The notes beneath the pieces are model-generated. The model did not search any database, was not told where the DNA came from, and worked only from the letters and a program-made list of their open reading frames with translations. From positions 28,188 to 92,187 of the forward strand of contig WKLE02001329.1 of NCBI GenBank assembly GCA_014885115.2: DNA of 64,000 nt, given 5' to 3'. This DNA comes from Asterionellopsis glacialis. Its lineage: Eukaryota > Bacillariophyta > Plagiogrammaphyceae > Rhaphoneidales > Asterionellopsidaceae. Below are positions 1 through 4,513 of the stretch, piece after piece. Each line of letters starts with the position of its first letter. The stretch's first letter is position 1. A program made the translations under genes and the position numbers.

Positions 1-3000
1 TTTTTTTCTTATCTTTTCGATTTTTCTTATCTTTTCGATTTTTCTTACCCATAGGAGCTCGATTCACTTCTGATAGCGGGATCAGCTCTGGTGGCGGAGG
101 AGCTTGTTTGCCCGTAGGCCATGTCTGTTTTGTAAACCGTAGATTTAGAACCTTTTTAATAGCTCCCATAGGCACTCGGTACGCTGGTGGCGGTGCCAAG
201 AACGACGATGCTTCCATTTCAATGCAACCTAAGTATTGCAGTGAAACGGTCTGTCTCAGGTGAGAGTTTTTCTGATAAAAGCCATTCTCGTAAGTGCGCT
301 CATCAATATTGCTATTGTCTGCAAGCTTCTTCAGCATTATGGTCAAAAGATGACGACTCACAACAGCATCTAGAACAGCATAGACAATTTGAGCCGAGGA
401 AAGCGGTCGCTGTTGCCAATCGGAGCATTGCTCTGTTTTGTCAAGACGCTTGTTCATAGTAATCGCTACAGCCTTTTGAAGGCTGTTGACGTAGTCCTTG
501 CGGTAGTTCGAGTATACACTACGAGCTAACATTTGTACATCGATTACCGATTCAAACAGTCGGAAGCACGGAAGGTGTGGGAATGACATTGCCATTTTTG
601 ACAAATCTTGCCCAATTCCAAACCCTACAATAGCAATGTATTCATTCGCAAACAGCTTTTCTAGCTCAGATGATAACAATGTTTCAATATTTGTCATTTC
701 ATGTTGTGCTATTCGAATCGATGGTTGACATAGTTCTTGTAAATCAACAAGGAAGGCTTGTGTTGGAGTGCTTAGTTGCAATGTTGCCACAGGATTATCA
801 CGTCCCTTGTCACGAGAAGGTTTCCATTCACAATCAAGTCCCCAGGCAAATCGAGCTATGATATCATCAGGTGGGTAACTGATAGACGCATCGATGAATG
901 CTGCATCAGCTCTTTGAACTGCCTCTTCTATAGCTTGTGCCAAAACATGAACACCGTCCATGTCATGCACAACAAATGGATCTTGGGATGGTTTTTCCGT
1001 TGACGTAACGAAAATATCCTTTAATTCAAGGCAATCAAACTTTGTAACATCCACAGTTGGTGGGGATGGGCTTGGACTTTTATTTCGTTTGGTTGAAATA
1101 CCTTTCTTTCCATTTTGTAATCCTGGTCGAATGGTGCGGATATAGGTTGCTGCAGAAGCAGTACTGGTCCCTTCAAGAATATTAGGAGTAGAATCATCCA
1201 TTTGTTGTTTTCCCTTGTCATTGTTATTGTTGTTATTTTTTCTATACTGCATACCTTTGGCGTACCGTATTTCTCGTGTAGTTTGACGAAGACTTCTTGG
1301 AAAACCTATACCGATTGGTAGACCACTTCGGGAATCATATTCAATTGCATTACTTTTGTCTTGCAAAAACTGATGATATGCTCTCAATTCTTCGTCTAGT
1401 TCAGGTGTCCTATTGTCATCATCAATGGAAAATCTCGGATCCAAATCACCATAACGCTTGTGATCTGAATTACTTATTCTATAATTGATAAAGGATCCAC
1501 CCGCTTCCAATTGTTGAGCTTCTATTTTGTATAGCATTTCACATGTAGATGGTTTTAAATGACTAGACGCCATGCTACAGGGTGTCTGACCTTTGTTATT
1601 CACAATGAGGAGATTCGCTTCAAGATCTTGTGCCAGTAACAAAACACAATCATCACGGCATTGCGTCAATGCATAAAATATAGGCGTCTTTCCATAATTA
1701 CCCTCACCTTGACTAATGATATTGACAAGGTCGGGTAGTCCATAGGATTGGCCTGCTTTTACTATCAACCGTACAGATTCTAAATCACCCTTCCACGCAG
1801 CTAAATGTAATGCATTTTTAGTATAATTCCCATCTGTATGACCCCCCACAGTTACAAGATTGGGAAAGTCAGACCCCGCTTCCTGTAAAATTTGACCAAC
1901 TTCGTGTGCCTTTCCTGATTTCCCCGCAGCATCACGAAGTCGTTTAGATAGTGATTTAGGTAGTACACGCAGTTCGGATTGTTCCTTTTTTCTCCCCTTA
2001 GTAGTTGAAATGTTGTTGTTACTACTGTTCGTGTCTCCTCTAACTTTGGTGTTCATCTTTCCATTTTTATTGACCGCATCTTTGTTCACAACTTTTCCAC
2101 TGTCCATGTTGTTGCTGCTGTCCATATGGATACTACCAGTGCTTCTCGGTTGTTGTTTGCCCTCCTTGGGTTGTGTCACAATAGAACATACTGTGCACCG
2201 AGTTGTCTTTTGTGCTACTCGCATAAAATCTGTTGTATTCAATTCAATGTCATACCCTACTGAACCTGATCCAATACTTACGGTAGACGATGACGATGCT
2301 TTTGGAGTAAGGAGTATAGATTCATCCATATACAATGTCAACATTGGAACAATATGACCAAATGGTGGAATAGTTCCTGATGTATATCCTGTTAATCGTT
2401 CCGCTAAATTTGTTTCTGCAAGTTGTATGTCATAGCGTTCGGTTGTTATTGCTGCACCATTCTTGTTGTGATTGAAGGTAGCAGAAGCATGAGTACTACT
2501 TATTATTTGTTGAAGAATTTTTTCATCCACTTTATCAGATACCTTTGTGGCAGTGACAAAGCAAAACTTCTCTTTCTTCTCTTCATCATCGATGATGCTT
2601 TCACCTGCTTGGTTTATATTTTGATCATATATTTTGGTCGCTTCCCATATCAGCGTCTTGACATGTGTTACTGAATCTTTTTCTTGCGTACTACCATCAT
2701 AATGTTGCGAAGGATCGGTAACGACAAGTCGAAAGGGACATTTGTCATTTTGAAGTAATGTACGTAATCGTTGATGGCCATTATAATGCAGGAAGGAATC
2801 ATCCTTTTCTTCTGATGGGTTATATTCTGATAACATTATTGTGGAGATAAAACTTCTCTTGTTGAATTTTCTCAAACGATGATGGTGAGGACTCTTATGA
2901 TTCTTATTACGTTTGATGGTTGTTGGCACAAATGTTGCAGCAGCAGATACAAGAATGACTGTTCCTCTTGTTTCTGCAAAGATACAACAACAACAATAAC

Positions 3001-3121
3001 AAAAAGTCAAGATGAAAGTAGCAGTGCAAAATTGAATAAAGCCAGTCTCGCGTTTTCCTTCTTTTGGGGCCCTATCATTCGTATTAGCAATTTCAAATGA
3101 TTGTTGACAATTTTGAGTCAT
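1..3121 (-). CDS. YbaK-like deacylase / ankyrin / 3'-5' exonuclease fusion protein (C-terminus beyond window)
   Basis: The reverse strand is open from an ATG at 3121-3119 to the left edge, about 1,040 codons with no stop and no need for an intron; an in-frame TGA lies just upstream of the ATG. Residues ~14-75 contain one or two hydrophobic stretches. Residues ~95-310 resemble the YbaK/ProX aminoacyl-tRNA deacylase fold, with the signature GYTSGTIPPFGH at 245-256. A low-complexity linker leads to about two ankyrin repeats (~430-510; NALHLAAWKGDLESVRLIV, then a TPIFYAL repeat). A DEDDy exonuclease domain follows: motif I LDCEW (D763, E765), motif II around D839, motif III WQQRPL...YAVLD (Y914, D918). 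The visible tail is proline- then lysine-rich. Seen: all motifs. Known: YbaK proteins hydrolyse mischarged tRNA; DEDDy domains trim RNA or DNA 3' ends. Inferred: an RNA/tRNA processing or quality-control enzyme. Any 3' exons lie outside the window. Confidence 0.88.
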   Translation of the reverse strand, partial: MTQNCQQSFEIANTNDRAPKEGKRETGFIQFCTATFILTFCYCCCCIFAETRGTVILVSAAATFVPTTIKRNKNHKSPHHHRLRKFNKRSFISTIMLSEYNPSEEKDDSFLHYNGHQRLRTLLQNDKCPFRLVVTDPSQHYDGSTQEKDSVTHVKTLIWEATKIYDQNINQAGESIIDDEEKKEKFCFVTATKVSDKVDEKILQQIISSTHASATFNHNKNGAAITTERYDIQLAETNLAERLTGYTSGTIPPFGHIVPMLTLYMDESILLTPKASSSSTVSIGSGSVGYDIELNTTDFMRVAQKTTRCTVCSIVTQPKEGKQQPRSTGSIHMDSSNNMDSGKVVNKDAVNKNGKMNTKVRGDTNSSNNNISTTKGRKKEQSELRVLPKSLSKRLRDAAGKSGKAHEVGQILQEAGSDFPNLVTVGGHTDGNYTKNALHLAAWKGDLESVRLIVKAGQSYGLPDLVNIISQGEGNYGKTPIFYALTQCRDDCVLLLAQDLEANLLIVNNKGQTPCSMASSHLKPSTCEMLYKIEAQQLEAGGSFINYRISNSDHKRYGDLDPRFSIDDDNRTPELDEELRAYHQFLQDKSNAIEYDSRSGLPIGIGFPRSLRQTTREIRYAKGMQYRKNNNNNNDKGKQQMDDSTPNILEGTSTASAATYIRTIRPGLQNGKKGISTKRNKSPSPSPPTVDVTKFDCLELKDIFVTSTEKPSQDPFVVHDMDGVHVLAQAIEEAVQRADAAFIDASISYPPDDIIARFAWGLDCEWKPSRDKGRDNPVATLQLSTPTQAFLVDLQELCQPSIRIAQHEMTNIETLLSSELEKLFANEYIAIVGFGIGQDLSKMAMSFPHLPCFRLFESVIDVQMLARSVYSNYRKDYVNSLQKAVAITMNKRLDKTEQCSDWQQRPLSSAQIVYAVLDAVVSRHLLTIMLKKLADNSNIDERTYENGFYQKNSHLRQTVSLQYLGCIEMEASSFLAPPPAYRVPMGAIKKVLNLRFTKQTWPTGKQAPPPPELIPLSEVNRAPMGKKNRKDKKNRKDKKK

Positions 3122-4513
3122 GGATGATGAAATATGGATGCCAATCAATCAACTTGGAAACTTGTGTGTGAACTTTTGTGTCTCCTATTTATTACGCGTA
3201 TGGTCTTATGAAGTCTTGCATAAATTAGATTCGATTGTCATCAAATACTATAATGTTCCTGTGTAGCATAGCATCCATGTACCGGTATAAGAGCACATGT
3301 GCTTTCATCATTTTTAGAAACGCATCGCATCGGGATATCTCGATCGGGAGGCAGGGGACAAGGAACACATCACAAACCAACACAGAAAAAGTAGATCTCG
3401 CACCAGCGAACCTCTTGTTTTTTGTAGTGGCTGTTCTAGTAGAGAGCGGACTCCTACATGAATTCTCCGTACCAGCTCTCTAGAGGTCATTGGAATTTAT
3501 TGGGAGTCGGTACTATCGGTGTGGTCCTTTGGCGGACGTATGCTTGCTTTTGTCGGGTTTCATTGCGGTTCAAGGTAGTTTTATTGGTACCCTCGTACTT
3601 CTACCTGGATATCTGTAGAGGGTGCTTCCAAAGGGGGGTTGTCTAAAACTACCTTAAACCGCATGCTGTGCTTGAACCGGAAGTTTCCCGACAAACGAAC
3701 GAATACCATCATAACTTGACCAATTCTTGTCGGTTTATCAAAGTTACTAGCCAAAAAGTTTCGTTTTGTTTCATGCTTCAAGACAGTTACAACACAAGGT
3801 CTTCAATAATAATCTCCCTGGAAAGGACGAAGATTGAAGCTTTTTGGCTTTTTTTCCGAAAAAATAAAAACCAGAAAAAGATTTTGGACGTTAAATTATA
3901 CGTACTCCAGTATATAGAACACTCCCGAGTATGCCGAGATTTTTTCTTGTGCTAGTGTTTTTCTAAGGACAGAAATTTCTGAGAGTTTGTCGTTTTTCGT
4001 TTTGTTTCATACTTCAAGACAGTATGGTGGTAACAACACAGGGTCTTCAATACTGATCTCTCCTGGAAGGGACGAAGCTTTTTGGCTTTTTTTCCGAAAA
4101 AATAAAAACCAGAAAAAGATTTAGGACGTGAAATTCTACGTACTCCAGTATATAGAACACTCCCGAGTATGCCGAGATTTTTTCTTGTGCGTGTTTTTGG
4201 ACCTCTGAGAGTTTGTCGTTTTTTTGGGGGGGAGTGGTGATAACGAGGCCAACACAAGTTCTACGGAGATGCGGTTCAAGGATGTACTACATTTTTTTTG
4301 ACCTTTTTTTTCGAAAAATGGAGTTCTGAGTTCTCTTTCTTGACAAGGGGCCAAATACGCGAATAGAACTAGTCCTCTCTACTAGAGATCCTATTCACAC
4401 CACGGCAGAGGCATGAGACACACGATAGAACGATCTCTAGACGATCACAATCAATTCAAATGGGTTCTCATACCACACGTTTAAAATCATAGAAGCTCTC
4501 TCTAAAAAAAAAA
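3122..4513. promoter_or_regulatory. Divergent intergenic region with repeats, presumed to hold both promoters
   Basis: This 1.4 kb spacer separates the 5' ends of the YbaK-exonuclease gene (-) and the vWA/J-domain gene (+), so both promoters should lie here. No clear TATA box or other element could be fixed by eye. It holds a 20-base imperfect inverted repeat (3564-3583 with 3644-3663), a duplicated block described separately, and CTCTCTAGAGG-type motifs near 3475-3485 and 4370-4390. The short open frames inside it overlap on both strands and look like chance. Confidence 0.45.
3768..4197. repeat. Direct duplication of a ~190 bp block
   Basis: Unit 1 (about 3768-3957) and unit 2 (about 4009-4198) share the same order of blocks: a TTCAAGACAGT start, a GGTCTTCAATA segment, CTTTTTGGCTTTTTTTCCG, an ACGTACTCCAGTATATAG segment, and CCGAGATTTTTTCTTGTGC at the end. 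They differ by small indels and point changes. This is a local tandem-type duplication; no terminal inverted repeats or coding potential were seen. Confidence 0.75.

Follow-up and report, generated by a model that had tools for sequence, protein, structure and literature searches.

A nucleus-encoded diatom protein combining an INS/YbaK-type editing domain, ankyrin repeats, a DEDDy exonuclease and an SRA-like domain in one chain

The window analysed here is a stretch of 64,000 nucleotides from the diatom Asterionellopsis glacialis (assembly GCA_014885115.2, contig WKLE02001329.1, positions 28,188 to 92,187). At its left end, on the minus strand, lies a frame that is open from position 3148 to the left window edge with no interruption and has an ATG at 3121; the next in-frame methionine, residue 96, is an alternative start. 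When the contig is read further to the left, a TAA stop appears 659 bases beyond the window edge (G000:C528:27529) and the frame amounts to 1259 residues (P0001). This single nucleus-encoded chain is composed of an INS/YbaK-type editing domain, ankyrin repeats, a DEDDy exonuclease and a C-terminal SRA-like domain (Table 1). An initial annotation, made from the letters of the window, had placed a YbaK-like part, ankyrin repeats and an exonuclease in one uninterrupted frame, which is borne out both by the frame and by relatives with the same order. All three parts are present, and the annotation overlooked the fourth, SRA-like domain, the gene leaving the window. A domain search of the full gene together with its left flank, proposed at the same time, gave clear Pfam matches for the exonuclease and the ankyrin repeats and a weak one for the editing domain.

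Table 1. Features of the gene; positions refer to the window unless stated otherwise
Feature	Residues	Position	Strand	Basis
Gene portion within the window	1-1040 of 1259	1..3121	-	Frame and contig sequence of the left flank
N-terminal extension with hydrophobic stretch and SAAAT^FVPTT (F64), candidate signal and plastid transit peptide	1-95	2837..3121	-	Rule-based scan
INS/YbaK-type aminoacyl-tRNA editing domain	113-317	2171..2785	-	AlphaFold2 model and fold matches; TIGR00011 6.6e-7; PF04073 9.3e-4
Codon of K155, aligned to the INS-superfamily lysine contacting tRNA A76	155	2657..2659	-	K in 54/54 lettered rows
GYTSGTIPPFGH, editing-domain glycine/proline signature	245-256	2354..2389	-	Conservation in alignment
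Ankyrin repeats	about 400-535	1517..1924	-	PF12796 5.1e-8 (438-532, two stretches); PF00023 1.3e-4
Conserved linker motif (NYR..NSDHKRYGDLDPRF..)	546-566	1424..1486	-	Diatom-type alignment A1
DEDDy 3'-5' exonuclease domain, Mut-7-like	761-933	323..841	-	PF01612 5.4e-18; PDB profile, Mut-7 homologs 9.4e-23, 1.3e-21
C-terminal SRA-like domain	about 1072-1259	G000:C528:27532-28095 (= L002:4533-5096), left of the window	-	Structure model and SRA-like matches

By sequence comparison and structure modelling, the protein is a four-domain fusion that is conserved as a family and retains the active-site residues predicted for both enzymes. Relatives were collected in three protein searches, which scored the 7984, 7987 and 7990 candidates with the most shared words; their number is a lower bound, and the searches do not establish absence from other named algae. 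The first search yielded at least 66 relatives and the third 15 further ids, three of them ankyrin-only and two partial. The ankyrin-only proteins (P0136-P0138, two of which bear the names of fungi, Teloschistes exilis and Umbelopsis ramanniana) are excluded from all counts, and the partial P0134 and P0135 are counted among the 78 diatom-type proteins. Eight organism-named relatives match beyond the ankyrin repeats, and taxonomy places every one of them among the diatoms: Seminavis robusta (P0005, P0034), Amphora coffeiformis (P0012), Ditylum brightwellii (P0027), Entomoneis paludosa (P0059), Pseudo-nitzschia heimii (P0058), Cylindrotheca closterium (P0126) and a Bacillariaceae metagenome-assembled genome (P0127). 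Seven of the eight carry INS, ankyrin, exonuclease and SRA-like motifs, and P0059 begins after the INS domain. The fusion is no recent accident, as Ditylum and the others are placed in different classes of diatoms. One chain unites INS, ankyrin and exonuclease motifs in 59 of the 78 diatom-type proteins. The INS motif is absent from 18, of which 14 are under 1000 residues and are probably truncated models; three of the four longer ones (P0029, P0128, P0132) keep the lysine motif. The exonuclease motif pattern is missing from two (P0131, P0135). In P0002, P0003 and P0004 the INS-ankyrin unit is doubled (INS motifs at 78/552, 123/565 and 12/454), an intragenic duplication, and P0005 and P0006 each combine two ankyrin motifs with a single INS motif.

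Starting from a distant match, P0067, a second family of at least 57 proteins was found, hereafter family 2, which may be green-algal. Its members have an INS domain, a different middle segment, the exonuclease and a C-terminus that can be aligned with the diatom-type one (e.g. at Y1147, N1149, F1151 and G1221) and that appears to be SRA-like as well. In three of four sequences the best or only Pfam match of the middle segment was tRNA_anti-codon (OB-fold), at 1.9e-4, 4.7e-4 and 0.025, all below cut-off; a profile of this OB-like segment retrieved no PDB chain up to E 1. Pattern searches for prokaryotic and viral relatives gave 18 and 17 matches, none a relative by tblastn, and being limited to the pattern they do not establish absence.

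Structure models cover residues 96-330 and 1060-1259. The AlphaFold2 model of the first region, together with its fold matches, has the INS/YbaK fold. The match to TIGR00011 (NCBIfam YbaK_EbsC) lies under the cut-off of that profile, and so does the match to PF04073, for which the protein scores 19.7 and 19.3 bits (23.4 in the genome search) and the curated cut-off is 25.5 bits. That cut-off is passed by four of seven relatives (P0067, 75.2; P0002, 50.3; P0034, 26.0; P0005, 25.9) and failed by P0012 (25.4), P0058 (25.3) and P0027 (13.8). In the residue counts, sites are scored over the rows having a letter there. K155 is a lysine in 54 of 54 such rows, with 13 of 67 rows gapped, and is also invariant in alignments A3 and A4; according to PMC10164551, the conserved lysine of the INS superfamily contacts A76 of tRNA. 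The signature is nearly invariant too: G245 55/55, P252 55/55, P253 54/55, H256 55/56. Among PDB sequences, 2cx5 (1.4e-16), which PMC11295145 names ProXp-x, lies closest to family 2. With its fold and conserved lysine, the domain belongs to the INS superfamily. YbaK in the strict sense, a Cys-tRNA(Pro) deacylase, goes beyond present evidence, family 2 being nearest to 2cx5.

The exonuclease domain has all three Exo motifs intact: D763, E765 and D839 are found in 67 of 67 rows, Y914 and D918 in 66 of 66. The initial annotation had named exactly these residues, correctly, and had called the domain a 3'-5' exonuclease, which stands as DEDDy. As to its family, a profile built on nine sequences, drawn from the diatom-type proteins and family 2, had Mut-7 homologs as best PDB matches (Table 1), followed by WRN (4.8e-17) and EXD2 (6e-15), with ribonuclease D far behind at 2.6e-6; RNase D, outscored by all three, was rejected as the family of this domain. 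In none of the eight proteins scanned did the Pfam matches, taken to E 1, include a MUT7-C domain, and the exonuclease is for this reason Mut-7-like in its catalytic domain only. According to PMC11347159, MUT7-C is carried by most, not all, MUT-7 members. The diatom protein shares the DEDDy exonuclease domain with MUT-7/Nibbler/EXD3 and differs from them in that no MUT7-C was seen, INS domain and ankyrin repeats precede the exonuclease, and an SRA-like domain follows it. Elsewhere in the genome, a 46-codon frame (L005:4395-4535; match at G000:C295:13382-13534) lies within a stretch 49% identical to exonuclease residues 872-927. The match has two TAA inside, the contig has no further match to the protein, and the stretch, close to an aspartate-carbamoyltransferase-like frame, is probably the relic of a lost paralogue.

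Behind the ankyrin repeats, and outside every domain found, the linker contains YGDLDPRF, among the most conserved diatom-type stretches: L560, P562 and R563 are invariant in A1, and Y557, G558, D559, D561 and F564 are conserved at 90% or more. This motif may bind a partner. The model of residues 1060-1259 (predicted local distance difference test, pLDDT, 89.5) has the SRA-like fold, its matches being SRA-like chains, of which only two Foldseek matches reach E 0.001. Identity to chains of modified-base readers with SRA or SRA-like domains, such as SUVH5, UHRF1, MspJI and SauUSI, is 7-16%, and none of the eight proteins scanned has a Pfam SRA match. PF02182 had no match in the organism's own genome; control genomes were equally without one, so that this result has no bearing on SRA presence. 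The modified-base pocket of SRA domains consists of aromatics and a polar contact. Candidate pocket aromatics, chosen by eye, are Y1147 (30/40 diatom-type, 8/10 family 2) and F1160, or tryptophan at that site (38/40 and 8/10).

Diatom plastid proteins carry a signal peptide with a cleavage site commonly followed by phenylalanine, as PMC4329603 describes. Our home-made presequence rule accordingly asked for a hydrophobic stretch, a small residue, phenylalanine and few acids afterwards. The two partial proteins mentioned above were outside the test, which kept 58 of 76 proteins, leaving out those with no initial methionine, no KT[LQ]xW pattern or fewer than 40 residues before the pattern; P0004, matched at its second INS copy, was kept as a miss. 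The rule was satisfied by 25 of the 58, compared with 2.87 expected from shuffled N-termini, and by 22/32 members with a long extension versus 3/28 with a shorter one. The protein is probably imported into the plastid, with the support coming from the family: the window protein itself passes the rule, yet 17% of its own shuffles pass too. The transcript-derived P0027 and P0058 fail it, and family 2 passes this diatom rule in 0/57. Among longer members of family 2, 29 of 43 contain no more than one acidic residue over their first 35 positions, which is loosely transit-peptide-like, with no control set for the comparison. For the window protein itself a plastid location is predicted.

PF04073 matches three places in the genome: a prolyl-tRNA synthetase (ProRS) on C999, whose editing domain is N-terminal, a stand-alone protein on C1448, and the gene studied here. 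Of these INS genes the window gene alone passes the presequence rule. The C999 ProRS (L006), nearest to family I, has no presequence. A second ProRS gene (C985, L023), which is again closest to family I, shows no INS match, and its N-terminus (VRA^FVTPST) is clearly of the plastid type. A plastid ProRS with no detected editing domain calls for a trans-editing factor, for which the window protein is the visible candidate.

On these grounds we tentatively propose, at slightly less than even weight, that the protein is a plastid-imported RNA 3'-end quality-control enzyme in which a trans-editing deacylase is joined to 3'-end trimming. The INS domain would bind the acceptor end of tRNA and hydrolyse wrong amino acids in trans, which would compensate for a plastid ProRS with no editing domain of its own. 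The Mut-7-like exonuclease, part of the same polypeptide, would trim or degrade 3' ends once they are free, whether on tRNAs or on other plastid RNAs, and the ankyrin repeats (in family 2, the OB-like segment) and the SRA-like domain would hold or select the substrate. Because both catalytic domains would act at an RNA 3' end, this is the simplest working model. The two activities, tRNA as their substrate, a coupling between the steps and the part played by the SRA-like domain are inferred. The initial annotation had already suggested a tRNA or RNA quality-control enzyme in one polypeptide; this is still the best reading, with predicted activities, and the likely plastid site had gone unnoticed.

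Other explanations have to be weighed against this proposal. That the fusion is an artefact, whether of a chimeric assembly or of a frame running across two genes, has a practically negligible probability and was rejected, given the uninterrupted frame and the 66 relatives, with the full domain order in the transcript-derived P0027 and P0058. The INS domain might instead be a non-catalytic tRNA-binding or aminoacylation sensor that steers the exonuclease, a role that INS-fold domains may also have in signalling proteins. We think this unlikely, since the A76-contacting lysine and the glycine/proline/histidine signature, nearly invariant over both families, indicate an intact active site.

It is quite improbable, in our estimate, that the protein is a modified-DNA-directed exonuclease, whose SRA-like domain would read a modified base and whose WRN/Mut-7-like exonuclease would digest from a nearby 3' end, with the INS domain as an accessory. 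The exonuclease is nearest to the RNA-trimming Mut-7, 10 of 40 diatom-type rows have a gap or another residue at the candidate pocket position Y1147, and the C-terminal domain has the two Foldseek matches and the lack of Pfam SRA matches described above; moreover, we know of no DNA role of any INS domain. Nor do we give much credit to two unrelated, uncoupled plastid functions joined for shared import or expression alone, although the long and variable inter-domain stretches would fit, as would the 18 diatom-type proteins without an INS motif if most of these were not probably truncated models. Two distant families whose middle segments differ share the order of INS domain, exonuclease and C-terminal region, which speaks against this reading.

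A 125-base sequence is present in two direct copies, 95% identical and spaced by 238 bases, at window positions 3836-3960 and 4074-4198, between this gene and the one that follows; near them is a 41-base copy pair, 80% identical.

The individual domains of the proposed quality-control enzyme are known, and their combination appears to be new as far as the literature was searched: in that literature, from which most subscription journals are absent, the searches gave no paper on this fusion, an architecture that the initial annotation did not know as a described protein, and YbaK and ankyrin occurred together in one paper, a synthetase review. PMC11295145 describes INS editing factors as mostly bacterial and single-domain except for the INS domain of ProRS; it likewise shows fusions of ProXp-ala with ProRS and a ProXp-ala bearing a plant C-terminal domain. 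Compared with YbaK, ProXp-x (2cx5/TTHA1699) and ProXp-ala, which are described as single-domain besides the ProRS INS domain, the diatom INS domain is one of four. Editing proteins of the T. brucei multi-synthetase complex likewise combine eukaryotic editing factors with other domains and, unlike the diatom protein, have no nuclease named in the search entries for PMC11286415 and PMC12021450. A more specific possibility, of low probability in our view, is plastid tRNA surveillance by deacylation and then degradation: the SRA-like domain would read a modified or wrongly modified nucleotide of the tRNA, the INS domain would strip the protecting amino acid, and the exonuclease would remove the CCA or destroy the tRNA. 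If this were true, editing and tRNA turnover would be a single event, and the protein would have, within the literature searched, the first editing domain to share a polypeptide with a nuclease, as well as an SRA fold reading RNA. If the proposal of trans-editing joined to 3'-end trimming is true, translation fidelity and RNA turnover would be joined in one conserved diatom enzyme, a candidate answer to how mischarged tRNA may be cleared in a plastid whose ProRS has no editing domain.
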